A stretch of 64,000 bases of DNA from Crotophaga sulcirostris (taxonomy: Eukaryota > Chordata > Aves > Cuculiformes > Crotophagidae), in contig VYZB01000056.1 of assembly GCA_013397455.1 (NCBI GenBank), positions 439,322 through 503,321 of the forward strand. The letters are read 5' to 3'. The notes below the pieces were generated by a model, which was not told where the DNA came from, ran no database searches, and saw only the letters and a program-made list of their open reading frames with translations. This document shows, piece by piece, positions 1-31,332 of this stretch (its first letter is position 1; each line of letters starts with the position of its first letter). The position numbers and the translations under genes were made by a program.

Positions 1-182
1 CCATGCTGGTGTCCCTTGTACTGTTTTTTTTGGTTCCAGTGTTCCCAGTGTTGGTGTCCCCTGTACCGGTGTCTCCTTTTTTTGTGTCCCCAGTGTTGGT
101 ATGCCCAGTGCCGGTGTCACCAGTACCAGTTTTTTTAGTCCTGGTGTGCCAGTGTCCCCAGTGCCCGTGTCCCTCCCAGGCG
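1..182. repeat. Short-unit minisatellite in a DDX54 intron
   Basis: A degenerate tandem repeat built on a GTGTCCCCAGTGCCG-like unit of about 15 bases runs from the window edge to about 182. It is interrupted by T blocks at 24, 77 and 130. It lies upstream of the first visible DDX54 exon and so is presumably intronic. Confidence 0.7.
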
Positions 183-215
183 GGCCGTGCAGAGCTGCAG
201 TGCCCTGGCACTGTG

Positions 216-426
216 GGACACTGAAAGGGTGATTGGCCACTGGAATGCGCTGCCCAGGGAGGTGGTGGAGTCGCCGACCCTGGATGTGTTTTTTTGAAGA
301 CTGGATGAGGCACTCAGTGCCATGGTTTAGGTGATGGGATGGTGTTAGTGTTGGCTTATAGGTTGGACTTGATGATCTCAGAGGTCTCTTCCAACCTTGT
401 AATACTGTGATACTGTGATACTGTGT
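216..426 (+). mobile_element. CR1 3' fragment
   Basis: This is a truncated CR1 LINE tail in + orientation, ending in repeats of an ATACTGTG-type octamer instead of ATTCTATG. It is closely related to the copy at 18366-18527. Comparing the two shows directly what a T block replaced (289-295 here; 18467-18473 there). Confidence 0.85.
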
Positions 427-467
427 GACACCCATCGCCACAGCCGTGTCCCCGTCGCTGTCCCCAG

Positions 468-3400
468 GTCCCCACGCCCTCGCTGCCCGCCTTCCCCACT
501 GCCGAGGAGGACGATGGGGCTGATGTGGAGCTGGACACGCAGGCCATGGTGCGGGCCCAGAACCAGAAGAAGAAGAAGTCTGGGGGCTTCCAGTCCATGG
601 GTGCGTGCAGGGCAGGGATCAGCTGTCCTGGGATGGGGGCTGTCCCCTCCTGCCCGTGTTTTTTTTCCTGTCCCTGCCCCCGCAGGCCTCAGCTACCCCG
701 TCTTCAAGGGCATTTTTTTGAAGGGCTACAAGGTGCCCACCCCCATCCAGAGGAAGGTGAGTGTGTTTTTTTGTGGGACCCCATCCCAAGGTGGTGGGAC
801 CCCATCCCAGGTGGTGGGTTTTTTTCCCAAGGTGGTGGTGGTGGAGCAGTGACGGTGGGGTGGTGTCTCGCTTTTTTTCCCCCCCATCCTGCGTGGCCGG
901 GACGTGGTGGCGATGGCGCGGACGTTTTTTTGGAAGACGGCCTGCTTCCTCATCCCCATGTTCGAGCGGCTGAAGGCACCCAGCCAGGCCGGGGCGCGCG
1001 CCCTCATCCTCTCGCCCACCCGTGAGCTGGCCCTGCAGACCCTGAAGTTCACCAAGGAGGTACACGGGACAACGGGCAAGACCGCAGGGGCGAGTGGGGA
1101 CAGTGGGGACAAGGAGCTTGGTTTTAACACACCCTGACATGCTCCTTCCTTGCCCCACAGCTGGGCAAGTTCACAGGCCTGAAGACAGCCCTGATCCTGG
1201 GAGGAGACAAGTAAGCTGTCCCCATGTCCCCACTGGTCCCTGCTCCCCTGAAGCCTCCCCAAAGCCTGGCGAGGGGCTGTGCCACCCCGCGCCACTTTTT
1301 TTTGTCCCCGCTCTCGCAGGATGGAGGACCAGTTCGCCGCGCTGCACAAGAACCCCGACATGTGAGTGGGGCTGTGAGGAGGGGACCTGGAGGGAAGTTG
1401 GTTTTTTTGAGCTCCTCGCCGTCTGGGGACATCACTGGGGACATCACTTACAGCCAGTGTGCCCAATGGACGTGACCTGGGGTTCCCTTGGAGCATCTTC
1501 CTGTGCTTTTTTTTGGGGACAAGGAGGTCTCTCTTGGGTCTTCGTTGGGCTGTATTTGGATCCTGCCCTTGGGATGGCGTGGGGTCGCCGTAGTCCTGTC
1601 ACCAGCTCTGTCCCCACAGAATCATTGCCACCCCCGGGCGCCTGGTGCATGTGGCGGTGGAGATGATTTTTTTGCTGCACACCGTGGAGTACGTGGTCTT
1701 CGATGAGGCTGACAGGTCAGCAGGACACGGAGGGGTCCATGGCGCTGGTGGTGCTCCCACGCGGGAGGAACGTTTTTTTCCATGTCCCCTGTCCCCTCCC
1801 CTGCAGGCTCTTTGAGATGGGCTTTTTTTTTTAGCTCCAGGAGATCATCGCCCGGCTCCCAGACTGCCACCAGACTGTCCTCTTCTCGGCCACGCTGCCC
1901 AAGCTGCTCGTCGAGTTTGCCCGGGCTGGTGTTTTTTTTGGGGCAGAGCGCGGCTGGGGGCTGGGCCTGGGGGAGCCTGGGAATTTTTTTTAAGCTGAGC
2001 TGGGTCAGGCTGGGCCAAGCAGGTGTCCCCAAGCTGATTTTTTTGGCTGGCTCCTGGAGTACGTCCCACATGTGACCCACGTATCACCACATCCCACAGG
2101 TCTCACTGAGCCGATGCTGATCCGTCTGGATGTGGAGTCCAAACTCAGTGAGCAGCTCAAGGTCAGAGGGGCTGGAGGAGCTCAAGATGAGCTTTGTTTT
2201 TTTTGCAAGCCACCAGGCTTGCCAGGAGGGGACAGGAGGGGTGGCAGCATTTTTTTGTGGAGGGGCTGAGCTGTGCCCTCCCTTTGCAGCTGGCGTTCTT
2301 CCATGTGCGTGAGGACAACAAACCGGCCGTGCTGCTTCACCTGCTCCGGAGTGTGGTGAAGCCCCAGGACCAGACTGTTGTCTTCGTGGCCACCAAGCAC
2401 CACACGGAGTACCTCAGGGAGGCAAGTGGCATTTGGGATTGCTCAGCATGTACCCCTGTTAGAGGAGAGGCTTTTGGGGGTGGCTTGGACCCCTTTCCAG
2501 ACCCACGTGGGGTCTGCGTCTGTGGGCACGTCCCTCTGCCTCTGTTTTGCTGGGTTGAAGGAGAAACCCCAGCATATGTGATGATGGCTGTGCTACATCC
2601 ACGTACCCCTCAGAGAAAGGGGGAAGCGCAGTGGGATTTGGGGGTTTGAGTGGGCACCCGGGGGTCTCAGAGCCCTGGGAGCTGAGGGGGCTTGCCCTTT
2701 GGCTGAGGTTGCACGTCCAGGTGGGATCTGCTCTCTCTTCCCCCCTCCCCAGCTGCTGACTGCCCAGGGCATCCGCTGCACACACATCTACAGCTCGCTG
2801 GACCAGACTGCCCGCAAGATCAACATTGCCAAGTTTGCCCAGGGCAAGTGCCCGGTGCTGCTGGTTACCGACGTGGCCGCCCGCGGGCTCGACATCCCCA
2901 TGCTGGACAATGTCATCAACTACAGCTTCCCCGCCAAGGGCAAGCTGTTCCTGCATCGTGTTGGTGGGTGCCAGGGGTCCCTCAGGGTGACAGGGAGGGT
3001 GTGAGTGGGCTGTCCCTTGTCCCCTATTTTTCCCATCCCCATGGCCTGCTGGGCTGGCACTGATGCCCCTGACTTGGTGGTGATATCTTTGGGGAAGGAG
3101 GGGACCATGTGGAGAGAGGCTGGGAGCAGGAATGGCCCTGAGCTTCCAGCTGGACTGTGGGGGTTCTTTGGGGCAGGGCTGCTGCCTTCCCTTTTGGATG
3201 GCACCTTAGGATCGTGGAATGGTTTGGAAGGAACCTTAAAGCCCATCCAATTTCAACCCCACTGCTATGGACAGGGACACCTCCCACCAGACCAGAGTGC
3301 TCAAGGCCCATCCAACCTGGCCTTGAACACCTCCAGGGAGGAGGCACCCACAACTTCCTTGGGACTCCGCTTTGCCACCTTCCCCAGTGACCCATAGCCC

Positions 3401-5944: not shown

Positions 5945-6508
5945 GGAAGAGGGCCGTGCCCCAGTGGCTGCCCCCACGCGTGGGTGCCAGGAAGGGGACA
6001 TTAAATATTTGGTTTTTTTTGCATCCTGACTCCTCTTTGTCCTTGTCGTGAGCATCGTGCAGTTCTTTTTTTCCTTGGGTCACCCCCAGGCACAATTCCT
6101 CCACCTTGGGTCACCCCCTTTTTTTATTCCTCCACCTTGGGTCACCCCCAGGGGCAATTTCTCACACCTTGTTTTTTTCCCAGACGCAGTCTTAAAACAA
6201 GCAGATGCTGCAGGTCCACAGCTGTTTTTTTTTTTGACTGGAGATGCCTTTGGAGAGCCCAACAGCCTGAAGAGGGGCAGCAGCTCCCCCTTCCTGCACA
6301 GCAGTAGGTCCTGCTGCCTGAGGGACCAGGTTTTTTTCCCAGTGTGGTTGTGTCCCGGTGCTCCTGTGCCACTGCCATCCGTGTCACCTCTCAGCACAGG
6401 GGTTTCCAGACTTGTTGGGGGCAACCAGGAGGCTGCTGGGGTCCTGTGGCCCCATGCTGGCCATGGCAGCTTCTCCCCAGACCCAGGAGCAGGTGCTTGT
6501 CCCAGGAG
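5945..6508. other. Convergent intergenic interval DDX54 / CFAP73 with a three-copy tandem repeat
   Basis: This holds the short DDX54 3' UTR and then, at about 6073-6170, about three copies of a roughly 33-base unit containing CCTTGGGTCACCCCC. T blocks at 6066, 6119 and 6172 fall inside the repeat and make its copies look more different than they are. The remainder should be CFAP73 3' UTR. I see no reliable CFAP73 poly(A) signal. Confidence 0.6.
6000..6005 (+). promoter_or_regulatory. DDX54 polyadenylation signal (ATTAAA)
   Basis: ATTAAA lies 55 bases after the DDX54 stop codon, followed by a T-rich stretch (partly the block at 6013) and a GT-rich segment. It implies a very short 3' untranslated region. 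Confidence 0.7.
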
Positions 6509-9500
6509 CTATTCCTGGCTCAGAGCTACCCTGGCACCCCTGTGCCTGGTGGCAACGGACAAGCGTGGGGGGGACAGCCCCGGCTGCCCAGGGTATTTTT
6601 TTGCACAGATGGCAGCCAGGTCCTGCATGCAGAGCAGCACCTGCAGAGACAGCGACCTTGTTGCCACTGCCACTGGGGACGTGAATGTCCCCGTGTGCCC
6701 CCCAGCCCCACTGCCCAGGGCAGAGGGCTGTGCTGACCATGTCCAGCTGGGCCTTTTTTTTCTCCAGGGCCACATCCGTGGGGACCTTGAGCCGTGCAGT
6801 GGCAAGCTGGAAGAGGTTCAGCACTGCCAGCTTGATCTGCCCCAGGAACAGGGTCTTCTGGGTGGCCATGCTCTGGATGTGGGCCCAGTGAGACTCCTGG
6901 AGGACAAAGCAACAGAGAGCCCAGCCCCCCCAGCCACTGCCCCATGTCCCCTGCATAGAATCATAGAATCATCTGGTTGGAAAAGACCTTTGAGATCATC
7001 AAGTCCAACCATACCTGTCTAATTACTAAACCATGTCCCTGAGGAACTCATCTACCCATCTTTTAAACACCTCCAGGGATGGTGATTCAATCACCTCCCT
7101 GAGCAGCTGTTCCAGTGCTTGACCATTTTTTTTGTAAAGAAATTTTTCCTAATGTCCAGTCTGAACCTCCCCTGGCACAACTTGCGGCCATATCCCCTCA
7201 TCCTATCATCTGTCACGTGGGAGAAGGGACCAACATCCACCTCGCTACAACCTCCTTTCAGGTAGTTGTAGACAGTGATGAGGTCTCCGCTCAGCCTCTT
7301 CTTCTCTAAGTTAAACAACCACAGTTCCCTCTGTCGCTCCTCATAAGACGTGTTCTCCAGCCCCTTCCCCAGCTCCGTTCCCTTCTCTGGATGCGCTCCA
7401 GCCCCTCAATGTCCTTCTTGGAGTGAGGGGCCCAAAACTGAACACAGTAATCCCACCCACTCCAGGACAGGACCCGGGAATCCTGGCTGTGTGTCCCATG
7501 CATGGTTGCTGATGATGCTTTCTAGGTGTGCAGGACCTCCAGCTCAGGCCAGACAGTGTTGCGTGGCTTCCCACCACCACACGGGGCATCTCCCCTCTGC
7601 AGCACAGTTGGGGCCTGTGCTGTTGCTGAGGGGACCTGGGGCACCCCACATCCCCCCTTACCTCCTGGAGAACGTCGTGATGGGTGGCCTCCAGCTGTGC
7701 ACGCAGCTGGGCCAGCTCATCCTTGGTGCACAGGAGGTCGCTGCCAGCCTCCTCTTGGTACCGCTGGAGCCGTGCCCGGCCCTGGTCCAGCTGCTCGTGC
7801 CTGGCTTCTGCCTGTTGTGCCAGGAGTGCTCGTGCCCCTGCCAGTGCTTTGAAATGGGCCACCATGGCTGGGACATCCTGGAACTGGGAGTGGGATGGTG
7901 CTGAGAGGCTGTGGGAGCTGCTGGGCTGGTTCCACACACGGGGTTTGGGTGGCACCACGGGATGGGGACTGTAAAGACTGACTCTACTTAAACAGCATCT
8001 GACTCTACTTGTATTGTTGTCTTTATCACCACCTTGGGTGCTGTGGCTCCTGATGGGCTGACTGTGCTGCTGCAGAGGAGGGGGAGAAGGTGCAGCAGGT
8101 GCTGCCCCCCCCCCCATAACTGTGCATGGAGACCCAGAGGGTTCAGGCAGAGGTTCTTCTGGCAAGGTTCTGTTGAGCTGCCAGTGACCCTGGAGCCCCC
8201 AGCCCCAATTCCAGAACCTTCCCAAAGGATCTTCTGCATATGCACTGATTTGAGAACCTTCACAGCAAGACCCCCCCTCCCATGCTAACTGGGGGGCCAT
8301 GGACTTGTCCTATAAGAAGAAGCCCTCCAAGAAAGAAGGTGTGTGCCCACCACCCCATGGAACCCGCCTGAAGTTGCTGCAGAAGAACCACAGGACCACG
8401 TGCTCCTGAAGACCACGTTTTCCAGATGCCCATGGAGTGGTGACTATGTTTCTCTCCATCCCCCACTGCTATTCCTCGCTCTCTTTTTTTCCTTCTCTTC
8501 TTCATGGCACTACGGCACATGGGATCAGATCCGAGTTGGGTTGTTCTGTCCCGCTGCCTTGGGGGTATCAGCTTGGGATCTGAACAGATTGGGATCTGGT
8601 TTTGCAACTTTGGGAGGCTCCAGCTTGGAGTGCACCCAAGTATTTGATTTGATATTTTGGCCATGCCCAAAATAAACACTGGTTTGTTATTTTGGCTGTG
8701 CCCAAAATAAATCCCGTTTTGAATTTACCCTGGGAGATTTGTGTGCAATTTGCCGCGCAGACACCAAAAGACCCTTCCCTCTCTGACTGTGCAGGTTGGA
8801 GGGGACACTTGACAGGGACGCCAGTGCTCACCTGTCCCACTCTGGCCAGCACACCCTGCAGGTACTCGCCAAAGCCGCGGAGGTTCCTCAGGCGCTGGGC
8901 CAGGTGCTCCCTGTGCCGCTGCAGCCCTTTTTTTTCCTGAAGCAGGTGGGAAACCTCCGCGTCCTGCTCTGCCGCCTGCATTTTTTTCCTTTCTGCCCGC
9001 CGCAGCGCCCGCTCCTGCCTCGCTGCCAAAGCCTGTGCCGTGGGCATGGGGTCAGCAGGGCCCTGACAGCCAGCCTGGCCCTGGGTCCCCACCTCAGCAC
9101 CTGGAGGAAGGCGTCGAATTTGAGGATGACATCCTGGAGCTGCTCTCTCCGCTGCCCCAGCTGCTGTCGCCGCTGCGCCAGGCGCTCCAACCTTTTTTTA
9201 AACTCCTGTGGGAGCACCAGCTGCTGAGAGCATCGCCCCACACTGGGGTGTACTGGGGGGACAGCACATGGACAACTGGTGGACATCCCAAGCAGCCCTA
9301 GAGAGGACACTTTTCCGAGAAGGAGCTCTGCTCCACAAAATGCTGGAAAGCTTTTTTTGGACTGGGGCTGGGGGGACACTTTTTGTTGGTCTTGGCTCAC
9401 AGTGAGTGATGGCACACAGGTAAAGTGACCTTATTAAACCTGATTTCAGGGTTTTTTTCAGAGGACACCGAGGGTCTTACCAGTGTGGTGATGTCCACCT

Positions 9501-11487
9501 GGCCGTATGACACTGCCTTAAATGCAGTCATGAGTGTTATCTGCATTATCGGTGTCCTTGGGGCAGGCAAGTTGGGAAACCCATCTCCCATGGCACATCC
9601 AGCCCCATGGAGGGGGCACGGAGGGGTTGGGGGCCACCCTCACCTCCCGCTGCCTCTCCAGCGCCTGTGCCAGCTCCGCCACCTCCCGTCTCTTCAGCAG
9701 CAAATGCGTGGTGGGCGGCAGCTTTTTTTTATCCCACGCCGGCACCTTCCTGTGCAGGTGGCATGGAATCATGGATTTTTTTGAGTTGGAAGGGACCTCA
9801 AAGCCCATCCAGTACCAAGCCCCCTGCCTTTTTTTGGGACACCTCCCACTGGATCAGGGTGCTCAAAGCTCCATCCAACCTGGCCTTGAACACCTTCAGG
9901 GATGGGGCAGCCACAAACTCCCTGGACAACCTGTTTTTTTTTCTCACCACCCTCATCATAAAGAATTTCTTCCTAATGTCTAATCTATTTTTTTCCCTTT
10001 CCAGTTTATAGCTGGTTCCTTTTGTCCAGTCACTCCAGGCTTTTTTTAAAAGTCTCTCCTCAGCTTTCTTGGAGCCCCTTTCAGTACTGGGAGGCTGCTC
10101 TAAGGTCTCCCTGGAGCCTTCTCTTCTCCAGGCTGAACAACCCCAATTTTTTTAGCCTGTACTCGTAGCAGAGGTGCTCCAGCCCTTGCATCATCTCTGT
10201 TTTTTTCTTTGGACCTGCTCCAACAATTCCACATCCTTCTCATGTTGGGGATTCCAGAACTGGGCCCAGGACTCCAGGTTGGTCCTCATAGAAGTAGAGC
10301 AGAGGGGCAGAATCCCCTCCCTCAACTCTGGAGTTCATCATGCCCAGGGAGGGGCAGCCACTGCCATGCCATGAGCACGACCCCACAGGGACCATCACTG
10401 CCCACCAGGGCTGCTCCCTCACCCCTGCCCATCCCTCCTGCTTCAGCCTCCCCTGCTCGGAGCCCCCAGGGAAGGACAAGTCAGGGCACAACCCTGGGAT
10501 TCCAGAGGTCCACCTGCCTCTCTGGTTCCCATTGCCAAGGGTGGCAGCTGGAGCTCTGCTCCCAGGGGAAACCTGTCTGACAGCCAGCCAGCAGCGTGGT
10601 GGGCAGCAGGTGGGCACCCAAGTGTCCTGGCACCTCTGGATGGGGTGCAGGTGAAGATGGAGCCCAAATGTTTGCCAGGGGGCCTTCTCCTTCCTGGGTG
10701 CCCCGACGGGGGATGCACTGCAGCACCCTGCCCAGGGACCCAGAACTGATCCAGGGACACCCAACCTGGCATTGGAACCCACCAAGGGACACTCATTGTG
10801 GCACTGGCATCCTGGGTATCCAGCACCCACAGAGGGACACCCACCCAGGGACACCAACCCTGGCACTGGCACCCCGAGGACTTGGCTCTTTTTTTGTGAC
10901 ACCCACCCTGGCACTCTGGGCATCTAGTACCCACCCAGTGATTTTTTTCCTAACACTGGCACCCCAAAGACTCAGCTCCACCCAGTGACACTCATTTTTT
11001 TGCCCCAGGGACCAGGTCCCCACCTAGTGACACCCACCCTGGCACCCTTTTTTTCCAGCACCCACCCAGTGATACCCACCCTGGCACTGGCACCCCAAGG
11101 TTTTTTTTCCCACCTAGTGACACCCACCCTGGCACCCTGGGCATCCAGCACCCTTTTTTTGATACCCACCCTGGCACTGGCACCCCGAGGACTTGGATCC
11201 CACCCATTTTTTTCCACCCTGGCACAATGGGTACCCAGCACCCACCCAGTGACACCCAGCCGGGCAGTGGCACCCTGGGGACCCAGCGATGGGAACATGG
11301 TCCCCGAGCCCCCTTGATGCGGGACACGTTGGCCCCTCTGCCAGCCCTTGCTGGCCCCCAGCAGCACGGGGCCGTGGGGGCTGGGTGGGCATCTGCCCGT
11401 CCCTCAGGGGGGATGGGGTCTCACTCACTGCAGCCACAGCTCCTCCCGGAAAGCCGTGCGCAAATCCTGCTCCAGGTCGAGGGCCAT
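6509..11487 (-). CDS. CFAP73: Cilia- and flagella-associated protein 73 (CCDC42B family)
   Basis: Coiled-coil axonemal protein of the CCDC42/CFAP73 (DUF4200) family; the Chlamydomonas relative belongs to the modifier-of-inner-arms complex. Exons in transcription order: 11487-11429 (ATG at 11487-11485), 9749-9644, 9205-9101, 9032-8832, 7883-7662, 6896-6738, 6640-6509. Sizes 59, 106, 105, 201, 222, 159 and 132 sum to 984, giving 327 residues against about 308 in human. The protein starts [13 protein letters not shown]. Diagnostic stretches are FDAFLQ at the 9101 exon end, [12 protein letters not shown] at the next exon start, [11 protein letters not shown] opening the 222-base exon, and LAVLNLFQL in the sixth exon. 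Most of it is Gln/Arg/Leu-rich heptad sequence. Several Lys runs are T blocks read on the other strand. Joining phases and family matches make the gene certain; the last exon's C-terminal tail is less sure. Confidence 0.92.
6953..7465 (-). mobile_element. CR1 3' fragment in CFAP73
   Basis: About 500 bases of reverse-oriented CR1 with the TAGAATCATAGAATCAT tail at its left end, in the 6897-7661 CFAP73 intron. A T block sits at 7126. Confidence 0.9.
7968..8765 (+). other. Unclassified, possibly LTR-like insert in a CFAP73 intron
   Basis: This intron interior is not CR1. Near its right end it holds two copies of an ATTTTGG...TGCCCAAAATAAA segment 36 bases apart (about 8651-8677 and 8687-8713), each with AATAAA in + orientation, antisense to CFAP73. 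Promoter-like pyrimidine tracts precede them. A solo LTR or an old processed insert would fit, but I found no clean TG...CA ends or target-site duplication. Confidence 0.25.
9760..10290 (-). mobile_element. CR1 3' fragment in CFAP73 intron 1
   Basis: Reverse CR1 starting at the ATGGAATCATGGA tail just left of exon 2's acceptor side and running to the CCAGAACTGGGCCCAGGAC block. It contains T blocks at 9776, 9829, 9935, 9988, 10041, 10147 and 10200. Confidence 0.9.
10757..11275. repeat. Minisatellite in CFAP73 intron 1
   Basis: Tandem, degenerate higher-order repeat built from segments such as CACCCACCCTGGCACTGGCA, CATCCAGCACCCACCCAGTG and GGACACCAACC. Units of roughly 50-60 bases are made of shorter variants. 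Seven T blocks (10889 to 11207) fall inside. No coding potential is claimed. Confidence 0.85.
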
Positions 11488-11544
11488 TTTACCCAACATC
11501 CACTCCTTGCTCACAGGCCACAGTGGAGCTGGGGCAGCCGAGCT

Positions 11545-11577
11545 GGCAGCAACACCGCGTTGTTGCCAAGGGCAGCC
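11545..11577 (-). promoter_or_regulatory. Candidate RFX X-box upstream of CFAP73
   Basis: GGCAGCAAC (11545-11553) and GTTGTTGCC (11559-11567) form an imperfect palindrome, followed by GTTGCCAAGGGCAGC (11562-11576). This resembles the RFX X-box (GTTGCC, short spacer, GGCAAC-like). It lies about 60-90 bases upstream of the CFAP73 start codon, where ciliary genes often carry such sites. The match is imperfect, so this is an inference. Confidence 0.4.
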
Positions 11578-11689
11578 GGAGGCTCCCGCAGCACCCTGGG
11601 ATTTTCCTGCCATGGCTCCTCGCACGGCTGCAAGGGCACAATGCCAGGCACAGGGATGGCGCCAAGGCTCCTCACGGACATCTTTTTTT

Positions 11690-13879: not shown

Positions 13880-13982
13880 TCCCTCCCTCCCTGGCAGCTG
13901 CTCCTGGAAGAGCTACAGCTTAGCAGGAGCATGGGCGGCTCCTGCCCCAAAACCAGGCTGGTGGGCAGGCACCGGGGCTCAC

Positions 13983-16900: not shown

Positions 16901-19900
16901 GTTTTCCAGAGCCGCTTTACTCCGATCACTTCAATGCTTGAAGGGGACACACATGACCCTTCTGCTATAAACCCAGCCCGGTCAAACTTAATCTCAAGCC
17001 GAGCATGGCACTAAAACCACCTCTTACTTTCACACAGGTGAAAAGCTCAGTGTGGGGAGATCTGTTGGCCCCTGAAGAGGTACCTAAACGACAAGCCACC
17101 TGCAGTTGTGTCGTCACGGATCTCAACTGCAGGACTGCTGCATTTTTTTCACAAGCTCTGCCATGCTGCCTTGGTAGCACCTCCCCCACGGCAAGTTTTT
17201 TTAAGCCTGGCTTGCCTGGCCACTGCCTTAGTGTCCTGGCAATGACCATTTTTTTTGCCTGCCCTGCCCCACCATTAGCAAGCTCATTAATAGTTAATAA
17301 GATAGGCAAGTCAGCTCACTTATCTCCACACTGCACGAAGGTTCCTCCTCCTTGACGACGTGGCTCCCGATGCACTTGAACACTTTGCGGTGGGAGAGGT
17401 GGGAGCTGTTCAGCGTTTCCACGTGGGTGTCCGAGGAGCTTGTGGAGCTGATGACCCAGCTGGAGTTCTCCAGATCGTGCCCCTCTTCCCTCCAGTGCAG
17501 GGTGGGGTGGGGGTACCCCCCAGGCCAGCTGCAAAACAGCTGCAGCATCAGCCCCGACGAGGAACTCTCAGCCCAGCACTTTGGGGATGAGTGTGGAGGA
17601 TCTGTTGGCAAGAACACCATGAGGTTAAAAAGATTTCCAAGTCACAGCTCTTGGCACCACAGGGCTGGAACATTCCCCTTGAAAATCTTCCTGGTTTCCT
17701 TGCTTATCTTCTCCCTGATCACCATTTTTTTTCCCCAGGGGAGCACAGCTCTGAACAGCAGTCCACAGCGACCAAGCAGGAGATTGGCCTGCAAAAGCTT
17801 TGCAGGAACTGCAGCCAAGCCTTGAGGGACTTTTTTTCAGGGAGGAAACAACTTATGGCCACAGTTTTGTCCAATGGAGAGGATTTTTTTACCTAAAACC
17901 ACAGCAGAATAAAATCTTCACACTGCCCTTGGTCCTCAAGGGGTCATGCCAACTGAGAACAAGGCTCTCCCTCTCCCTGTCACCAACACAAACATTCAGA
18001 TTTCCCCAGGGAAGGTGGAAAGCATAAGGGCTCTGGCCCAGGGACAAGTCACCAGCTTCTAGAGCCACCAGCCAAAGCTGGAGCAATTCACTAGGAGGCC
18101 GAGCACATTGCTGAAGGAGGAGGCTGCTCCTAGGGAGGGGAGATTTAGTTTTTTTATTAGGAAGAAATTTTTTACAATGAGGGTGGTGAGGCACTGACAC
18201 AGGTTGCCCAGGGAAGCAGTGGAGGCTCCATCTCTGGAAACATTCAAGGTCAGGCTGGTTGGGGCTCTGGGCAACCTGATCTAGTTAAAGACATCCCTGC
18301 TCCTGCAGGGGGGTTGGACTGGATGATCTGTAAAGGTCCACTCCAACCCAAAGCATTCTATGATTTGCCCAGGGAGGTGGTGGAGTCGCCGACCCTGAAT
18401 GTGTTTAAGGGAAGACTGGATGAGGCACTCAGTGCCATGGTTTAGGTGACGAGTTGGTGTTAGTGTTTTTTTTTAGGTTGGACTTGATGATCTCAGAGGT
18501 CTCTTCCAACCTGGTTATACTGTGATTCCCAGATGCTCTGCCCACAGGGAGTCTGGGTGACTCCAGCTCACAGAGCGAGGGACACAGACATGTGCCACTA
18601 AAGCCAAACCAGATGTGCTCCACTTCTTCCTGGCACCGCTGTCACTGCCGTGTGGGGCCAGAGAGTATTAACCCAGCCACGCACTGCGCTCCACGTCCAC
18701 ACCACACCGCAGCCGTGGGGACAAACTCCAACGAAGAACATTGTCAGGGTAAATCACTGCTGGCTTCACGCCAAGGCCACTCTGTAGCCACCATGACTAT
18801 GTTTGTTACTCAAATAAAAAAACAACAACAGGATGGTAGGAGCAGGTCAGAAGCCAACAGAAAGCCAAGAGCAATTCCCTCAGGCAGAGTTTTTTTTACG
18901 TTTCCCGCAGGTGAGTCCCTGCCTCTCTCTCCTCTCAGCTGGTTTTTTTTACACACCCATGCACAGAGACACACAGGTGTTCATTTAACAGCCACAGGGA
19001 TTCTGGACTCTGATCCAGGCAGAATTAACACATTGTGCCCCTGGAGCCTTTTTTTTTGCTGAACAAGGCCCCACTGAGGGCCAGAGTCATAGAATCATGG
19101 AATTTTTTTGGTTGGAAGGGACCACAAAGCTCACCCATTTCCAACCCCCCTGCCATTTTTTTGGACACCTCCCACTGGATCAGGAGGCTCAAAGCCCCAT
19201 CCGACCTGTTTTTTTACACCTCCAGGGATGGGGCAGCCACCACTTCCCTGGGCAACCTGTGCCAGGGCCTCCCCACCCTCATTGTGAAGAATTTCTTCCT
19301 AATGTCTAATCTAATTTTTTTCCCTTTCAGTTTAAAGCCATTAAGACACTGACAACGCAAGCCACACACAAGAAGTGTCAAAGGGATGCCTGGTCTTTAT
19401 TTTGCAGAGCATTTATTCAAGTGATTTTCAAATAACATGAGTTAAAAAAATATATATCACGGCAAACCCCCTGTGAGCTACAAGAACATACCTTCTCGGG
19501 GCTTGGCTTTCCAGGAACTATATACATTTTTTTCGCGTGATCTTTGAAACCATCCAGCTCTGGCAAGAAAGTTCTCTACAGCACTTCCTCTGTCCCAGCT
19601 CTGGAGAGACATCACAGCCAATCCTGAATCCTGGCTGTGGTTAACAAGAGCAACCTGTCAGCCTGAATCATCAGAAACAGCCCTGTTTTTTTAAGTGGAC
19701 ACAGCCCTTTCAGCCAGGGAGCTGCATTTTTTGTGCTGGCTCCAGGAACCTGCCTCCTGAAGCCATCAGCTTTAGATCCTGGACTCCCAAGCCCTCCCAA
19801 TACAACTCTTCTCTCTAAAATGCTAACAGTTCCCAAAATGTTAATTTTTTTAAACCCAAAACCCCCCACCCACCCCCTCAACCGAAAAAAAAAATCATTT

Positions 19901-22900: not shown

Positions 22901-24312
22901 TTTACGCTGAGGGTGGTGAGGCATTGGCACAGGTTAACCTGAGAGGTGGTGGCTGCTCCATCCCTGGAAAAACTCAAGACCAGGTTGGCTGGGGGTCTGA
23001 GCAACCGGATCGAGTTGAAAGTGTTTTTTTTCACTGCAGGGGGGTTGGAACGGGATGACCTTCATGGTCCCTTCCAATTTTTTTCATTCTATGATTCTAT
23101 GATTTGGCAGCTAACAATGTTCAGTGCGGATTTTTTTTCAGGAAAAGAGACACAGCTCAGAAGGCTCAGCAGAAAGGCAAGGACAGGGTTGTTTGTGCCC
23201 AGGAGAGGAGGAAGGGCAACACCTGAAGGAGCTGGCGAAGAGCAGCGTTAGAGCACTGACCACGCTGGGTCACAGCAAGGTTCACACTGACCTAAGGTGT
23301 TGCTGGGCCACCTGACCCACTCAGGGGACCCAAAATGGAGACAAATGCCACCCTGACAGTGACCGCCGTGGAGGAAGGCGACACAACTTTAAATATTTTT
23401 TTACCTTTCCTACTTTCCCCTGTCCCTGCCAGATGGCACCTGGAGCTATTTTTTTCTGGAAGGGCTGCTGGAGCCCCCTCAGTGCCCACAGGAGCACCCT
23501 CTTTTTTTCCAGAAGCCCCCATAGCACCTGCAGGAGCCCCCATAGCTCATTTCCAAAGGGATGCATTGAATCATAGAATGGTTTGGGCTGGAAAGGACCT
23601 CAAAGCCCATCCAGTTCCAAGCCTCCGCCATGGGCAGGGACACCTCCCACTGGATCAGGGGGCTCAAAGCCCCATCCAACCTGCCCTTGAGCTCCTCCAG
23701 GGATGAGGCAGCCACGACTTCCCTGGAAAACCTGTGCCAGTGTCTCACCACCCTCATTGTGAGAAATTTCTCCCTAATCTCTCACCTAAATCTTCCCCCT
23801 TCCAGCTGAAAGTCGTTCGCCCTCCTCCCATCACTCCAGGCCCTTGTAAAAAGCCCCTCCCCAGCTTTCCTGGAGCCCCTTTCTGTACTGGGAGGCTGCT
23901 CTAAGGTCTCCCCGCAGCCTTCTCTTCTCCAGGCTGAACAACCCCAACTCTCCCACCCTGTCCTCATAGCAAAGGTGCTCTAACCCTTACATCATCTTCG
24001 TACAAGCAACTGTATTTTTTGAAATTTAGACAGAACGTCTACTCTAAATCTTCCCCCTTCCAATTCAAAGCCGCTCCCCCTCCTCCTGTCACCACCTGCC
24101 CCTGTCTCTTGACACTCTGAGCACAACAAAAGCTCCGTTTGTACAAGAGCTCCGTGCCGGCCCCGAGGAGCTTCCCGAGCAGCCGAGGGTGGGCTCTGCT
24201 GGTCGCCCCCTCCCTCAGCCCCGCTACCTGCGGCGTCGCAGCGCGGAACCAGCTTCCACACGCAGAGGGCGAGGAAGAAGAGGGCTGGCGGCGTCCCGCC
24301 GGGGAGCCGCAT
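13983..24312 (-). CDS. VSIG10: V-set and immunoglobulin domain-containing protein 10, incomplete
   Basis: Single-pass Ig-superfamily membrane protein of unknown ligand. Exons in transcription order: 24312-24228 (ATG and a hydrophobic signal peptide, [12 protein letters not shown]), 22423-22139 (Ig domain with TVLLLC, WFQG, DEGNYTC), 17601-17320 (Ig, C...W...C), 16294-16001 (Ig, NVTLLC, LTWLRG, CYVC), 15487-15377 (transmembrane helix, [14 protein letters not shown]), 14939-14927 (13-nt micro-exon), 14146-13983 (cytoplasmic, [16 protein letters not shown]). Every Ig junction is phase 1. About 411 codons are seen against about 540 in human. The shortfall equals the second Ig domain plus a short C-terminus, neither found. 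False stops from T blocks: TGA at 16091-16089 and TAA at 15401-15399. Donor and acceptor matches are good elsewhere. Confidence 0.92.
14927..14939 (-). other. VSIG10: 13-nt VSIG10 micro-exon
   Basis: On the minus strand a long pyrimidine tract ends in CCGTTCAG, then 13 bases (GTGCTGCATTCAG), then a consensus GTGAGT donor. The exon before ends in phase 1 and the exon after needs two bases, so only an insert of this size class restores the frame. The joined text aligns with the segment before DDVxVLVDSE in the human protein. Confidence 0.8.
16354..16592 (-). mobile_element. CR1 3' fragment in VSIG10
   Basis: Reverse CR1 tail beginning at CATAGAATCACTTGGTCGG, 60 bases upstream (in transcript sense) of the third recognised Ig exon. 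T blocks at 16348 and 16560 touch both ends. Confidence 0.85.
18120..18367 (+). mobile_element. CR1 3' fragment
   Basis: Forward CR1 tail ending in AAGCATTCTATGATT. It abuts a second CR1 head to tail at 18366. Confidence 0.85.
18366..18527 (+). mobile_element. CR1 3' fragment of the TACTGTGA-tailed type
   Basis: Starts at GCCCAGGGAGGTGGTGGAGT with no spacer after the previous CR1 tail. It is nearly identical to the copy at 216-426 and serves as the internal control for T-block substitution. Confidence 0.85.
19086..19346 (-). mobile_element. CR1 3' fragment
   Basis: Reverse CR1 tail with five T blocks (19103, 19156, 19209, 19315 inside; 19050 adjacent). Confidence 0.85.
19396..19417 (-). promoter_or_regulatory. 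Paired AATAAA signals inside the VSIG10 locus
   Basis: On the minus strand AATAAA occurs at 19417-19412 and 19401-19396, 16 bases apart. It is preceded by T/A-rich text and followed by ordinary sequence. This looks like a genuine transcript 3' end between the first and next recognised Ig exons. It would fit intronic polyadenylation of VSIG10 or a nested transcript. Confidence 0.4.
19418..21104. other. Unique sequence in the VSIG10 large intron, no gene recognised
   Basis: About 1.7 kb without CR1 until the copy at 21105. No frame with domain similarity was seen on either strand. It contains ten or so T blocks. Transcribed leftward it could be 3' UTR to the AATAAA pair at 19396-19417. Confidence 0.4.
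21105..21375 (+). mobile_element. CR1 3' fragment
   Basis: Forward CR1 tail (GATTTAGATTAGATATTAGG through CAACCCAAACCATTCCACGA) with T blocks at 21170, 21276 and 21329. Confidence 0.85.
22555..23102 (+). mobile_element. CR1 3' fragment between VSIG10 exons 1 and 2
   Basis: Forward CR1 of about 550 bases, ending ATTCTATGATTCTATGATT. T blocks at 23025 and 23078 fall near the tail. Confidence 0.9.
23572..23995 (-). mobile_element. CR1 3' fragment
   Basis: Reverse CR1 starting GAATCATAGAATGGTTTGGG, with no T block, inside VSIG10 intron 1. Confidence 0.9.
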
Positions 24313-24530
24313 CGCCGTGTGCCCGCCGCACCCTCCCGCCTCGGGGAGGCGGTGCTGCCCGGCCTCCGCCCCGGAGAGCGGGCGGGCGGGCACGACCGAT
24401 CCTTTTTTTCCCGGGAAGGGGGTCCTGTATCAGGTGTGTTCCCCCCTCCCTCCCCTTTTTTTTGCGCCGCCGCCATCTTGGGCGACCCCGCCATTTTGCC
24501 CCCCCGCCTTTTTTTCAAAGCCATTTTTGT
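24180..24530 (-). promoter_or_regulatory. VSIG10 CpG-island promoter with YY1-type motifs
   Basis: CpG-dense sequence surrounds the VSIG10 start codon. On the minus strand upstream of it are CAAGATGGCGGCGG (from 24480) and CAAAATGGCGGGG (from 24498), which match the YY1 core ATGGCGGC. No TATA box is seen. T blocks at 24403, 24456 and 24509 have removed some promoter bases. Confidence 0.6.
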
Positions 24531-24623
24531 CAACCCCCTCAAGGAAGCCCTGGACCAGTTTTTCTGCCCTCGGGTGCAGCCCAAGGGTTGGGAACGTTTA
24601 AGGCAGGGGAGGACGATGTTTCA

Positions 24624-25005
24624 TAGAATCATTGAATCATCTGGTTGGAAAAGACCTTTGAGATCATTTTTTTTAACCATACCTGTCCACTTACTAAGCC
24701 ATGTCCCTGCTGAACTCCTCTATACGTCTTTTAAACACCTCCAGGGATGGTGACTCAACCACCTCCCTGGGAGTTTTTTTCAGTGCCTGACCACCCTTTC
24801 AGTAAAGAAATTTTTCCTAATGTCTAGTCTGAACCTCCCCTGGCACAACTTCCAGCCATTTTCTCTCGTCCTATCATCTGTCACTTGGGAGAAGAGACCA
24901 ACACCTCCCTACAACCTCCTTTAAGGCAGCTGTAGACAGTGATGAGGTCTCCCCTCAGCCTCCTCTAAGCAAAACAAACCCAAGTCCCTCAGCTGCTCCT
25001 CGGGC
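24624..25005 (-). mobile_element. CR1 3' fragment
   Basis: Reverse CR1 starting CATAGAATCATTGAATCAT just upstream of the VSIG10 promoter. T blocks at 24668 and 24774. Confidence 0.88.
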
Positions 25006-25029
25006 AAAGCAAAGTGAAAGCAGTAAGGG

Positions 25030-25512
25030 ACACCCCACAGGGAATCTTCCAGAGTTCAACCACTTAGAGACACCCCGAAAGCAGAGGGAGTGGGAAAAAC
25101 AGCGATAAATGACTGTGAACTGTGCCACAAAATGTGTGGTTCTGTTTTTTTGACATGATTCTGATAATGCTGACACTAAACTCTCTAAGGCTCGTTTTGG
25201 AGTCTTTGAAAGCAACATCCTTTATTTCAACACTGGGCACATGAGGGAATGATTTCCATCAATCATGTGTAACGAGAAAAGAGCTGGGGACAGAAGGTAT
25301 TTCCCACTTACACGCATGTGTATAAATTCTCCCAGAAATCTTATGCATATTCCTGTTTCCAAGGAGTAATTTTATTATGAACTTCACAACAGCCAAACCT
25401 CTGCTAATTGGAGCTTTGAAGCCAGTTCTCCATCTGACCAAGGGAAACCCCACAGGGGATGTGCCAGAGTTCAATCACCCTGAAAGCAGACAGAGTGGGA
25501 AGAACAACAATA
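25030..25512 (+). repeat. Diverged direct repeat pair, about 415 bases apart
   Basis: The segments at about 25030-25110 and 25445-25512 share CCCCACAGGG, CCAGAGTTCAA and GAAAGCAGA...GAGTGGGAA in the same order, with one indel of about 13 bases. The interval between them is unique. It could be a local duplication or remnants of a terminal-repeat element. Confidence 0.5.
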
Positions 25513-25745
25513 GATTTTTTTTAACCATGCATGAATGGTATGGTTCTTGGGTGTGGGCAACAAAAATAGCAGGCAGCAGCTTAAGACAAAGCTGGGGAGT
25601 CCAGACAGAGGAGAGGCTGAGAGCAGCAGGTGGAAGGGGTGAGGGATGAGATTCTCCACAGCTGGGAGGTCTACAGGAACCAGCACCAGGGGAAGGGAAA
25701 GATACAAATGTGTTCAGTTTCTTTAAAGGTGTTGGTTCAATTAAG

Positions 25746-26100
25746 AGAATCATAGAATGAATCATAGAATGGTTTGGGTTGGAAGGGACCTTAAAGCCCA
25801 TTCAATTTCAACCCCTGTGCCATGGGCAGAGACAACTTCCACTGAATCAGGTTGCTCAAAGCCCCATCCAACCTGGCCTGGAACACTTTTTTTGATGGGG
25901 CAGCCACCACTTCTTTGGGCAAGCTGTGCCAAGGCCTCCCCACCCTCACAGAAAAACCTTTCTCCCTAAGATCTCATCTCAGTCTCCCCTCTTTCAGCTG
26001 AAAACTGTTCCCCCTCGTCCTCTCTCTGATCAAGAGCCCCTCTCCCGCTTTCCTGGAGCCCCTTTCAGTACTGGAAGGCTGCTCTGAGGTCTCCTCGGTT
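25746..26100 (-). mobile_element. CR1 3' fragment
   Basis: Reverse CR1 with a doubled tail motif (AGAATCATAGAATGAATCAT) between VSIG10 and PEBP1. T block at 25887. Confidence 0.88.
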
Positions 26101-26106
26101 TTTTTT

Positions 26107-26529
26107 CTTCTTCTTGCCCTGGGTCAGTATAACAGAACACAGCCATATGCTGTTAAATTTCAGATCTGTTAGGAGAAACTGCCCCAATGGCCCTACATTG
26201 TTCACTACTGCCAACAGCAGGTTCCAGGCAGGTTTGCTGGGTGCAATAACACATGGATTTTTTTTTCACATAACTCCACCGGGAGGGCTGTAAAGCACAT
26301 CTGCATCCTCAGGTTCCTCCGGGACACCTTACTGTTTGGCAACATGGCCAGCTCTACTGTGGCCATCACTCACTGGGCTACGGTGTGCATGGAGCAGAGC
26401 ACAGATATCCACGGGGCAGCCCTAGGCCCCAGCACATCAATTATAACCTAATTAATGAACCATTAAGCATTTTTTTCAGTGCTGTTCTGGGTAACGGCTC
26501 TGCCAGTGCATCCAGCATGGCATTTTTTT
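26107..26529. other. VSIG10-PEBP1 interval between CR1 copies
   Basis: About 420 bases with no CR1 similarity, no convincing frame and no RNA gene seen. T blocks at 26258, 26470 and 26523. Confidence 0.5.
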
Positions 26530-27140
26530 CGGGTCGAGGGAGGGGATTGTTCTGCTCTGCTCTGTGCTGGTGTGGCCCCATCTTGAGTATTGGGTGAGGT
26601 TTTGGGTGCTGCAGTATGAAAGGGACCTTTTTTTTCTGGAGCGTCCAGAGGAGGGCACAAAGCTGGTGAAGGTTTTAGAGGTTTTTTTGCTGAAGTCACT
26701 TGGTCTGTTCATCCTGGAGAAGAGACTGAGGGTAAACCTCATCCTGGTCTGCAGCTTCCTCATATGGGGAGGAGGAGGAGTAGGCACTGATCTCTTCTCT
26801 CAGACTGGAGGGAATGGCAGGAAGATGTGCTCGGGCGGGTGTTAGGTTGGATGTTAGGAGAAGGCTCTTCACCCAGAGGGTGGTGGAGCACTGGAACAGC
26901 TCCCTAGGGAAGCAGCCACAGTGCCAAGCCTGACAGCGTTCAAGAAGCACTTGGCCAACACCCTCAGACCCACAGTGTGAATGTTGGGGGTCCCCTGTGC
27001 AGGGACAGGAGTTGGACTTGATGATCCTTGTGGGTCCCTTCCAACTCAGAACACTCCGTGGCTGCTGGGTCCACTGTGCAGGGACAGGAGCTGGACTTAA
27101 TGGTCCCTGCGGGTCCCTCCCCACCCAGGACACCCCATGG
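26530..27140 (+). mobile_element. CR1 copy with duplicated 3' tail, next to the PEBP1 promoter
   Basis: Forward CR1 of a different subfamily, lacking the ATTCTATG tail. Its last roughly 70 bases (GTGCAGGGACAGGAGTTGGA onward, from about 26996) recur in diverged form at about 27076-27135. It ends at the edge of the PEBP1 CpG island. Confidence 0.8.
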
Positions 27141-27149
27141 CTCTCTGAT

Positions 27150-27350
27150 TCCATTGCGGTGTTCGGCCCCGCCCGCCTGGGGGCGCCCGAACAGAGGCAG
27201 CGGGGGAGAGGGTAGCGGCGCGCCGCGACCAATGGGAGCGCAGCGCGCGAGCACCTCGGCCAGTTTTTTTTCGGGGCGTTGGCGCCTCGGCCAATGGGCA
27301 CGCGGGGGGCGGGCCGGTTAGCTGCGCGGCGCAGTGCGGGAGCAGCAGCC
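27150..27350 (+). promoter_or_regulatory. PEBP1 CpG-island promoter
   Basis: Very G+C- and CpG-rich, with no TATA box. It carries CCAAT at 27229-27233 and 27291-27295, and a GGGCGGG Sp1-type box near 27307-27313. A T block at 27265-27271 has erased seven promoter bases. An AAAATGGCGG YY1-like motif lies just inside intron 1 (27519-27528). Confidence 0.7.
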
Positions 27351-29633
27351 ATGCCGGTGGACCTGGCGCAGTGGGGCGGCCCGCTCAGCCTCACCGAGGT
27401 GGAGCAGAAGCCCGCGCACCCGCTGCGCGTCAAGTACGGCTCCGTGGAGATCGACGAGCTGGGCAAGGTGCTCACGCCCACCCAGGTGGGTCACACGGCG
27501 AGGGGGGTGGAGGGGCGCAAAATGGCGGGAGGCGGCTGTGCCAGGCCTGGCTCCTGCTGCAGGAGAAACCCCGGCGGCTGCGTGCAGGAATGGCCTTGGG
27601 CCGCGAATGATCCGAGGGCTGGGGCACCTCTGCTGTTTTTTTAGGCGGAGAGGGTTGGGCTTGTTCAGCCTGGAGAGGAGAAGGCTGCGGGGAAATCTTA
27701 GAGCAGCCTCCAGTACTGAAAGGGGCTCCAGGAAAGCTGGGGAGGGACTTTTTACAAGGGCATGGAGTGAAAGGACAATGAGGGACGGCTTTAATTTTTT
27801 TGGGGGAAGATTTAGGCGAGATATTAGGGAGAAATTTCTCACAATGAGGGTGGTGAGGCACTGGCACAAGTTGCCCCAGGAAGCTGTGGCTGCCTCATCC
27901 CTGGAGGTGTTGAAGGCCAGGTTGGATGGGGCTTTGAGCCCCCTGATCCAGTGGGAGGTGTCCCTGCCCATGGCAGGGGATTGGTACTGGGTGGGCTTTG
28001 AGGTCCCTTCCAACCCAAACCATTCAATGATTCTGTGACTGCGTTGTCACAGCTTGCACTGGGTACACATGGCAACCATGGGCAGTGCTGCTGGGTGGCA
28101 CAAGCTGCATGGTGCAGGCAGCAGGGTGGGTTGCTCTTCCTAATGCTGTCATCCCTGCAGGTCCAGCATCGCCCCACAAGCATTGAGTGGGATGGCTGCG
28201 ATCCCCAGAAGCTTTACACGCTGGTTCTCACCGACCCAGATGCTCCCAGTAGGAAGGACCCAAAGTTCAGGTAATGGGGGTGGGTGGCTCCCTGTCTTGC
28301 CTGGGGAAAATGGGGCATCCCTTTTGGTCTGAGCAGAGGCTTAGAAGGAGGTCAGGAATGTGCTCTGCCTGAGGTGCAGCAGTGAGCCTGTGGCTTGGGA
28401 TAGAAACAGTGCCCTTGCATCTCTCCTTGAGCCAGGGACAGCATGGGGAGGAGTGGCTGCTTTTGCCAGTGGTGTTGAAGGTCTGTTGGAGCTTGGAGAA
28501 GCACAGCATCTGCTTGTCACTCTAATTGGCACATGTGTGAGTTGGAATTAGGTCTCTCTGTGCTAGCAGTGGCGTCTTAAACTTAGGACCAGCTCACGTT
28601 TCTCAAATCAGGCTCAGAAGCGTGTGGAGTATCCACTCTTACGGGTCAAGCTCAAGGTTTCCCAGAGCCACAGGCAGGATGACAGAGCGGGTTCCAACAG
28701 GCTCTGCTTTTGCAGGAGGCAGAACCTGCTCTAGGACTGGTTTGGCAAACCAGGAGTGGCAGCTGTTGTCTCCAGTTATGTAGTTCCAGTTTCTCTTTAT
28801 TGAAAAGCGGCATCTTGGAGTAATGCAGGGTCTTGACTGGGGTGGTGAAGCAATCTGATTGTCTTTTGCCTTCTCCTTTCAGGGAATGGCATCACTTCCT
28901 GGTGACCAACATGAAAGGCAACGATGTGGGGAGCGGGACCGTGCTCTCGGATTATGTCGGCTCCGGCCCTCCCAAAGGAACAGGTTGGTCCTGGCTGCAG
29001 AAGTTCCATGCTCTTTTTTTAGATCAGACGGGGGTGCACAAGGAGGGGGGAGGCCTGCAGAAACCTGCCTGCCAGCTTGGCATGTGCCGCATGGCTGGGC
29101 AAAGGGTGTGCTGTGCTGTGGAAACGGCCTGTGCAGGCTTGTAGCCATGGCCAGCAGGGACGTGTTCTGCACCGTCCCCTCCTCCAGTCACAGGCTGTGC
29201 CGCGTTTCCTCGAGGGCGAGCACCAGCCCAGGCAGGACACGAGATGGCAGGCATGCCCAGTGCATCTTCTCTGAGCTCCTTCAGCTCCAACAGATTTGCT
29301 GTCTGGTCCTGGAGAGCACAGGCATCTTTCCCTGTGCTCCTGGGGTCGCTCCAGAGCAAACCCTGAACCTGGGAATTGCAGGCGATGGCACTTGTGACGC
29401 TGTCTCCTCCCGCAGGGCTGCACCGCTACGTGTGGCTGGTGTACGAGCAGCCGAAGCAGCTGACCTGCAACGAGCCCATCCTCTCCAACCGGTCTGGTGA
29501 CAAACGAGGGAAGTTCAAGGTGGCAGCTTTCCGCAGCAAATACGAGCTGGGGGTGCCGGTGGCTGGCACTTGCTACCAGGCGGAGTGGGATGACTACGTT
29601 CCGAAGCTCTATGAGCAGCTCTCAGGGAAGTAG
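27351..29633 (+). CDS. PEBP1: Phosphatidylethanolamine-binding protein 1 / Raf kinase inhibitor protein
   Basis: Cytosolic protein that binds phospholipid head groups and Raf-1 and damps MAPK signalling. Four exons: 27351-27485, 28161-28270, 28883-28983, 29416-29633. They total 564 bases, giving 187 residues, the same length as human. It starts [14 protein letters not shown] at an ATG in a good context (GCAGCC before it). The conserved ligand-pocket motifs are present: [14 protein letters not shown] (exon 2), [14 protein letters not shown] (exon 3), and [14 protein letters not shown] across exons 3 and 4. No T block falls in coding sequence, so this gene reads cleanly. Residue 153, a serine phosphorylated by PKC in mammalian RKIP, reads as alanine (codon GCT in KVAAFRSKY). 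It is head-to-head with VSIG10, 3 kb away, and tail to tail with TAOK3. Confidence 0.98.
27645..28038 (+). mobile_element. CR1 3' fragment in PEBP1 intron 1
   Basis: Forward CR1 in the sense orientation of PEBP1, ending AACCATTCAATGATTCTGTG. T block at 27795. Confidence 0.9.
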
Positions 29634-30233
29634 GGTGAGGGGGACCTGGAGGAGCACTGTGCAGCACCGGGCCGCTCGGAGCATCTTGCTGTAGTCTTTG
29701 AGTTGAACCCAACTGCTCCTGCGCTGACTGCTGGAACCGTAACCCTGTCACTGTCCCTGTCCTGAGCCTGCGTCCGTGTGGCCCAGAGCTGTGCTGTAGG
29801 CACGGGCTTTTTTTTACGAGTATCTGATGAGGTGTCCCCTCTGGGCTGTCCCACTCCAGGGAAACCAAAGCCTCTGCCAGTTGGTGTCATGTGAGCGTCT
29901 CTGCTGCACTGAAAGGGAATTTTGCCGAGTGGTGTGGGTGCTGAACCACTGCTGGGGTGGCGCTGGCTGTGTGGCCTCCCCTTTCTGGGAGAGGGGAGGC
30001 GGTGGCAGCAAGGAAACTCATTTTTTTTTTCCTTATTTTCACCCCGGAGTGCTGGCCTGTGCCTCCCGTTCCCTGCAATGAGCCACCAAAGTTGTGAAGG
30101 TGGAGCTGGGGGGAGGCAGGGAAGCTTTTTTTTACTTCCTTCTGTTCTCTGCTGCTACTTAAAGCTGAGACCACTTTGTTTTGTTCCAGTTCTGTTGTGA
30201 CCTGATGTCAATATGCTGTTTGCTCACAGTGCG

Positions 30234-30239
30234 ATTAAA
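30234..30239 (+). promoter_or_regulatory. PEBP1 polyadenylation signal (ATTAAA)
   Basis: ATTAAA lies 600 bases after the PEBP1 stop codon, with a GGATGGTGTGCTTCTC GT-rich element following. An alternative ATTAAAA near 30887 is possible. Confidence 0.6.
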
Positions 30240-31215
30240 AACTTCCCAAGGCGGATGGTGTGCTTCTCTTCCTGGGGGATGAGGGTTTTTTTTTCGGAGC
30301 AGCATGGCCTCATCTGGTTCCTTTCCCCCCTCTGTGTGGGTGGAACAGCCCAGAGCAGTTGTGTCTGTCCAGCAAGCACCTGGTACCAGTTTGGATCTGC
30401 TCTGCTCATGGTGCAGCTTGCCTTCCCAGTAAGAATTCCTGGGATTTTTTTTGCTAGCAGTAGGAATTTGGAGGAGATGCTTTTGTCCCAAGGTGTCTCT
30501 GAAGCCACTGTCACTTGGCAGCAGGGTCACATATTCCCTGAGACCCTCCTGTTGCCATCTCGCTGTTCTTACAGCTGGAGGGGCACCCTGTGCCCACAGG
30601 TGGGTCCTAGGGGAGCAGAGCTGGCTGGGAAGGAGCTCTCCCACCCCCCTCCATCAGCCTCCCTGGGCCTCAGGGCCTTCAGCCTGTGTTTGGCAGCTGA
30701 TTTGTGTCCTGTGGGATCTCCAGGTGCTCCCTGGTGGCTGCCTTCCCACAACCCACAGCTGAACCCCATGGCAGATCTGCTGCAAGAGGAACCCTTGCCT
30801 TTACGATCCTGAAGCCACTTCCCAGCTGAGCTGCAGGGTCCCCCTTGTTCTCCTGGTCCTCCAACGGCAGCTTTTCAACCCAGCCATTAAAACGTGAAAC
30901 CAGGATGGATGGTTTTCCAGGAAAACATCCCCCACTGCTCAAGTCCAAGCTCCACCAGAGTAAAGGGGGCAGATGCGCTCACCTTCACTGTGCTCAGCAA
31001 GGGCTGAGCTGCCTGGGGACTTCTCAGCCTGGAACCAGGACATAAAAAAATGAGCCACAACCCATTAACCTAAAAACCTCCACTGTCAGGAAGGCCAGGG
31101 CTGGAACGGAGCCCGAGGCTCCTCCAGCCCCAGGGCTGAGAAAACATCTCCTATGGAGGAGTGGGTGGGGTGGAAGGGGCAGCTCTTCCCACAATGAGAC
31201 AGCGAGGCGGTGTGA
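30240..31215. other. PEBP1-TAOK3 convergent interval
   Basis: About 1 kb with no recognisable gene, RNA or CR1. T blocks occur at 30286 and 30445. It may hold longer PEBP1 3' UTR forms. Confidence 0.5.
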
Positions 31216-31223
31216 TGAACACT

Positions 31224-31229
31224 TTTATT
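31224..31229 (-). promoter_or_regulatory. Likely TAOK3 polyadenylation signal (AATAAA)
   Basis: On the minus strand TTGTAAATAAAAGTGTTC reads as a strong poly(A) signal. If used by TAOK3, the 3' UTR would span 32565 to about 31205, including the gap. Confidence 0.6.
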
Positions 31230-31332
31230 TACAAATATAATTAAAAGCTCTGACAGTTATTCATGCTCTTCCTTGGAACCTGAAAAATGGGGTTTTTTTC
31301 TGTTGTTTTGTTGGTTTTTTTTGGTTTTTTTT

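Follow-up and report, generated by a model that had tools for sequence, protein, structure and literature searches.

Blocks of seven T at an exact 53-base step in a contig of Crotophaga sulcirostris: a computational artefact in contig coordinates

In our study, a contig of the Crotophaga sulcirostris assembly was found to contain blocks of exactly seven T (T7) placed at an exact step of 53 bases, and the blocks were confirmed to be a computational artefact in contig coordinates and not a product of biology. The window, the whole stretch of 64,000 nucleotides that was analysed, corresponds to C1015:439322-503321, and the assembly searched comprised 1.058 Gb in 1548 contigs. A two-stage origin, in which single contigs were overwritten and then partly repaired with the help of reads, is the account that we consider likely.

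The lattice of the window

The features of the lattice and of the contig that bears it were as follows.

24..31299, no strand: T7 lattice with a step of 53, 135 of 591 slots filled (T-run positions and slot count)
17256..17831, no strand: stretch that contains a one-base phase shift (T-run positions)
1..31332, no strand: lattice-bearing contig between two N gaps (gap positions)
31333..32035, no strand: N gap of 703 bases, end of the lattice (gap position)

The slots were located at 24+53k up to 17249 and at 23+53k from 17301 to 31293. The filled slots were exactly T7, and the other 456 slots were empty. These counts agree with the first-pass annotation, which had described about 135 runs on an exact 53-base lattice at these coordinates, with three quarters of the slots untouched. 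None of the 591 slots contained A7, C7, or G7. The window contained 159 runs of at least seven T, and their starts modulo 53 showed the sharp pile-up that the same annotation had proposed to look for, with peaks at 24 (69 runs), 23 (50 runs), and 22 (14 runs), the last two also counting runs that begin with one additional T. The 22 A, 8 C, and 4 G runs of seven letters or more were devoid of such a modulo-53 peak. The edges of the blocks were sharp, T being present in 100% at the seven places and at the background level on either side. The blocks of C1015 started in all four phases modulo 4 (34, 39, 29, and 33 blocks), and their length was always seven.

The phase of the lattice moved by one base between 17256 and 17831, which was the sole shift in 31 kb; an eight-T run at 17725 was compatible with both phases. 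An Ig-domain-like ORF (17297-17641, - strand) was found intact inside this stretch, so that it did not reveal the position of the missing base. The step in contig coordinates was exact whatever the sequence content, in C1015 as well as in C5, where no shift was found over 33.6 kb.

The first base of the window was found to be the first base after an N gap (C1015:430147-439321), and together with the gap at 31333-32035 this shows that the lattice fills one whole contig. Beyond position 31320, T7 was found at 0 of the 616 slots of the same lattice, about 13 of which fall inside the N gap at 31333-32035, and no lattice was found in ten nearby C1015 loci of 10 kb each, of which one consisted mostly of N.

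Other lattices in the same assembly

The pattern T7-N46-T7-N46-T7 was found to match the genome 19526 times in the forward and 4306 times in the reverse direction. Further lattices were reached from the places of this T7 triple and by later searches at lags of 27, 53, 54, and 52 bases. At least five further contigs were found to carry lattices with constants of their own (T7 per 54, T14 per 27, A10 per 27, A8 per 26, and T8 plus T7 per 52), and the resulting number of six affected contigs is a lower bound.

C5:462402-496051, no strand: T7 per 54 bases, 104 of 623 slots filled, no phase shift (slot count)
C81:793613-833286, no strand: T14 per 27 bases, 827 of 827 slots filled in the first 22.4 kb (slot count)
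C321, from 2466704 to between 2499001 and 2500000, letter A on the + strand: A10 per 27 bases (slot count)
C680, 3126001-3128500, letter A on the + strand: A8 per 26 bases, 95 of 96 slots filled in the 2.5 kb read (slot count)
C490, from 1719211, no strand: 52-base cell of T8, four bases, and T7 (cell count)

The lattice of C81 kept its phase in three sampled pieces and over the final 3 kb, and it ended at a single N; about half of the letters of this contig were lost. The slots of C321 were filled in 158 of 158 and 147 of 147 cases in the two pieces read. Among the 43 whole cells of C490, both blocks were filled in 30 and both were empty in 13, and a cell was never split. The first cell of C490, which is cut by the contig start and stands outside the 43, was mixed, with the T7 filled and letters other than T in the six bases that remain of the T8 place. 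The lattices ended at contig boundaries where these were read, i.e., at both ends for C1015, C5, and C81. The left end of C321 was read and its right end was bracketed to 1 kb, the left end alone was read for C490, and the ends of the C680 lattice lie outside the region read. No clear lattice was found in stretches of C43 and C73 with pattern hits or in a sample of C500. A single reverse hit of C680 falls inside its lattice region, and single reverse hits were also present in C720.

C1015, C5, and C81 together account for about 9845 forward matches, with the C81 count extrapolated from 22.4 to 39.7 kb, and C321 accounts for about 3190 reverse matches, extrapolated from 8.3 to 32.8 kb. If the remaining 1,100 or so reverse matches are background, about 8,600 forward matches are left unplaced, and the searches at the four lags did not place them; they could possibly stem from additional lattices or from T runs of great length. 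The steps 27, 53, and 54 suggested a shared word length of 27, and this idea was weakened once 26 and 52 appeared. The A and T contigs may reflect a single process seen on either strand once the contigs had been scaffolded, or there may have been two default letters.

Replacement of bases and the filling of slots

On the evidence of the letters, the blocks of C1015 were shown to be a length-preserving replacement of seven bases. An insertion of T tracts between adjacent bases was ruled out by the reading frames of DDX54, by repeat copies, and by CpG across the blocks. The features concerned were the following.

713..719, + strand: T7 in a DDX54 exon, human GIMKKGY changed to GIFLKGY (alignment to human)
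872..878, + strand: T7 over the presumed splice acceptor and the first codons of a DDX54 exon (acceptor inferred)
925..931, + strand: T7 in motif I of DDX54, human TGSGKT changed to TFFWKT (alignment to human)
1667..1673, + strand: T7 in a DDX54 exon, human EMSLKLQ changed to EMIFLLH (alignment to human)
1826..1832, + strand: T7 in a DDX54 exon that creates a stop, human GFAEQLQ changed to GFFF-stop-LQ (alignment to human)
10889..11213, no strand: seven successive filled slots in or beside a 90-bp tandem repeat (repeat-copy comparison)

The joined exons matched human DDX54 (PDB 8fkt, E 3.1e-210) without a gap at or beside four blocks. The corruption, which hits four DDX54 exons, breaks a conserved gene, and an annotation could read it as substitutions, as a stop, and as the loss of a splice site. 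Beside DDX54, an ORF at 8571-9197 on the - strand, which may be CFAP73-like, showed a weak DUF4200 match of 29.1 bits (cut-off 29.7).

In the tandem repeat, ordinary 7-mers stood opposite the blocks at 11048, 11154, and 11207 in the copy at a distance of 90 bp, and 19 to 22 of the 24 flank letters agreed; at the block at 11101, 18 to 20 of 24 flank letters matched the copy. The other three of the seven blocks (10889, 10942, and 10995) were unusable, their flanks being too unlike the copies (5 to 13 of 24). CpG was depleted in the sequence of C1015 and C5 (observed/expected 0.3 and 0.19, respectively) and was not depleted across the bases that flank the blocks (8 versus 6.7 expected in C1015, 4 versus 2.9 expected in C5). 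A repeat copy in C81 aligned ungapped with the copy in the window, with 91 of 101 letters equal over 200 bp when the T14 blocks were treated as wildcards. In the same contig, CpG across the blocks was found 27 times versus 32.9 expected, and at five within-island places 2 to 8 times versus 28 to 35 expected. No repeat match was found in the C321 pieces, which leaves CpG as the one argument for replacement there, with 5 versus 4.7 and 8 versus 5.0 expected across the blocks of the two pieces, and 32 versus 88.5 and 24 versus 84.8 expected inside the islands. In C680, CpG across the blocks was found 6 times versus 3.7 expected.

The first-pass annotation had left open what selects the filled slots. 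In our study, slot selection was found to be predicted by flank complexity within contigs and by island length between contigs. The share of empty slots grew with the length of intact sequence between the blocks, from 0 of 827 at 13 bases (C81), 0 of 305 at 17 (C321), and 1 of 96 at 18 (C680) to 13 of 43 at 33 (C490), 456 of 591 at 46 (C1015), and 519 of 623 at 47 (C5). This series comprises six contigs, in which period and block size vary together with island length.

Within C1015 and C5, the two contigs in which flanks were measured, the filled slots had flanks of lower 4-mer complexity with more local repeats, all slots having been masked alike beforehand. With flanks of 53 bases, the difference in complexity was equalled by none of 590 circular shifts in C1015 and none of 622 in C5; with flanks of 106 bases, it was equalled by 1 of 590 and 0 of 622, respectively. 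At 212 bases, the effect was gone in C1015 (p 0.13) and persisted in C5. In C1015, 50% of the slots were filled in the tenth of lowest complexity and about 19% in the upper three quarters; the corresponding values in C5 were 44% and about 10%. A thresholded test for local repeats was significant in C1015 (12 of 135 filled versus 2 of 456 empty slots) and not significant in C5 (2 of 104 versus 2 of 519). The filled slots of C1015 were clustered, with 57 adjacent pairs versus 30.8 +- 4.2 in shuffles. The mean GC content did not differ significantly in C1015, the lowest p being 0.08 with 46 bases of flank. With flanks of the same length, GC departed modestly more from one half around filled slots (p 0.01 in C1015, p 0.0009 in C5), an effect weaker than that of complexity. 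The empty slots showed no excess of T over a control phase. A sequence motif as the selector was also considered; among 63 flank places in each contig the lowest p was 0.0037 in C1015 and 0.0011 in C5, which is unconvincing given the number of tests.

Origin of the blocks and comparison with known systems

In the first stage of the proposed account, seven adjacent bases in every 53 would have been overwritten with one letter when the contig was built or written, its length remaining unchanged. The same would have happened in at least five other contigs with periods of 26, 27, 52, and 54, blocks of 7, 8, 8+7, 10, and 14 bases, and T or A as the letter. In the second stage, read-based correction would have brought back the original letters wherever the intact islands were sufficient for the placement of reads, and would have left damaged the low-complexity and repeated places and the contigs with islands of at most 18 bases. 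The exact step, the contig bounds, the contig-specific constants, and the survival of blocks tied to island length and flank complexity can be read from the letters of the assembly. From there we infer that the lattice was originally complete and that the lost bases were recovered through the alignment of reads.

The operation that produced the lattice must have acted per contig and per letter, on contiguous residues that recur with a step P, because the blocks ignore packing phase, genes, and sequence. As a guess, the contig may have been arranged as a table with P columns, or its positions may have been shared out in turn among P workers, and a contiguous group of columns may have kept a default letter; such a layout would produce the pattern with a P near 26-27 or 52-54. 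Aligner seeds with a length of about 19 bases would fit the step in the empty share between islands of 18 and 33 bases. The one-base shift in C1015 suggests an edit made after the lattice was laid, although C5, which is also partly empty, has no shift. Taken with the contig bounds, the constants of each contig, and the restored-looking empty slots, the shift probably points to a later read-based editing step, and the damage probably preceded the last correction step. The repair account is favoured by C490, in which the two blocks of a cell share the same state, filled or empty, in 43 of 43 whole cells. Against it stand the mixed first cell of C490, the lack of a phase shift in C5, and the loss of the complexity effect at 212 bases in C1015.

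Several other explanations have to be weighed against this two-stage account. The finished file could have been corrupted after assembly, by zero-filling of packed bases or by lost.2bit N blocks read as T, with the empty slots never touched. Such corruption would yield an exact step in sequence coordinates and a constant block length, and T is the zero code of the.2bit format; the zero-filling had been put forward as a guess in the first-pass annotation. However, 53 equals 1 modulo 4, and blocks that are always seven long and start in all four phases have their edges off the four-base boundaries; whole-byte filling, with four bases packed into each byte, cannot produce them. Also, C321 and C680 carry A and not T on the + strand. 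The bounds at N gaps, the periods specific to contigs, and the dependence of block survival on flank complexity and island length are likewise at odds with file corruption, which we consider improbable. The earlier statement of a computational corruption in contig coordinates, and not of biology or ordinary read error, has held; its timing after assembly is not supported, given the contig bounds, the separate constants, and the restored-looking slots. A rule for masking or low confidence, which placed T solely in cells with some property, for instance low complexity, and involved no repair, would explain the less complex and more repetitive flanks of the filled slots in C1015 and C5. Such a rule is hardly probable, however: all 827 slots of C81 and all 305 slots of C321 that were read are filled though their islands look ordinary, about 19% of slots are still filled in the most complex flanks of C1015, and each contig would require a different step and block.

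The regular constants of each contig would also suit letters altered on purpose, as a watermark or a planted test signal. This is very unlikely, as the dependence on island length and complexity and the one-base shift would require that read-based repair had been imitated. A natural T-tract array in the genome has nothing in its favour beyond the presence of the T runs and is practically inconceivable. The step runs exactly through exons, introns, and repeats, it stops abruptly at N gaps, and other contigs have other steps. The array is also incompatible with working coding exons, as the catalytic motif I of DDX54 is destroyed and one stop is made.

We know of no program that does such overwriting, and a literature search, at the level of titles and the opening parts of abstracts, found no assembler or polisher with such a failure. 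The two-stage account leaves room for a more tentative reading, on balance doubtful, that the lattices belong to an undescribed class of assembly failure, the stride-wise loss of columns in single contigs that is mostly hidden by later read correction and stays visible just where no reads could be aligned. As part of that reading, similar lattices may have gone unnoticed in other public genomes. The biological interest of the blocks is low, and they make an instructive case for quality control. Scanning each contig for homopolymer runs and tabulating their positions modulo P would be a cheap means of detection in any assembly. If the repair account is true, the six contigs provide a natural measure of the intact sequence needed by read correction.

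Among known systems, the surviving blocks are comparable to the consensus errors of draft assemblies that are missed by short-read polishing, which likewise survive in places that reads fail to reach, namely in low complexity, in repeats, and in badly damaged stretches. Ordinary residual consensus errors are scattered and mostly indels, whereas the blocks of the window have a fixed length and an exact step. The storage of N as T in the.2bit format would likewise turn masked bases into T with the length kept. It differs in that true N gaps are kept here and A lattices exist, and it leaves the steps and the partly empty slots unexplained. A data-parallel write, strided or round-robin, from which workers or columns are missing likewise loses contiguous residue classes modulo P throughout the array, and P may vary by job.
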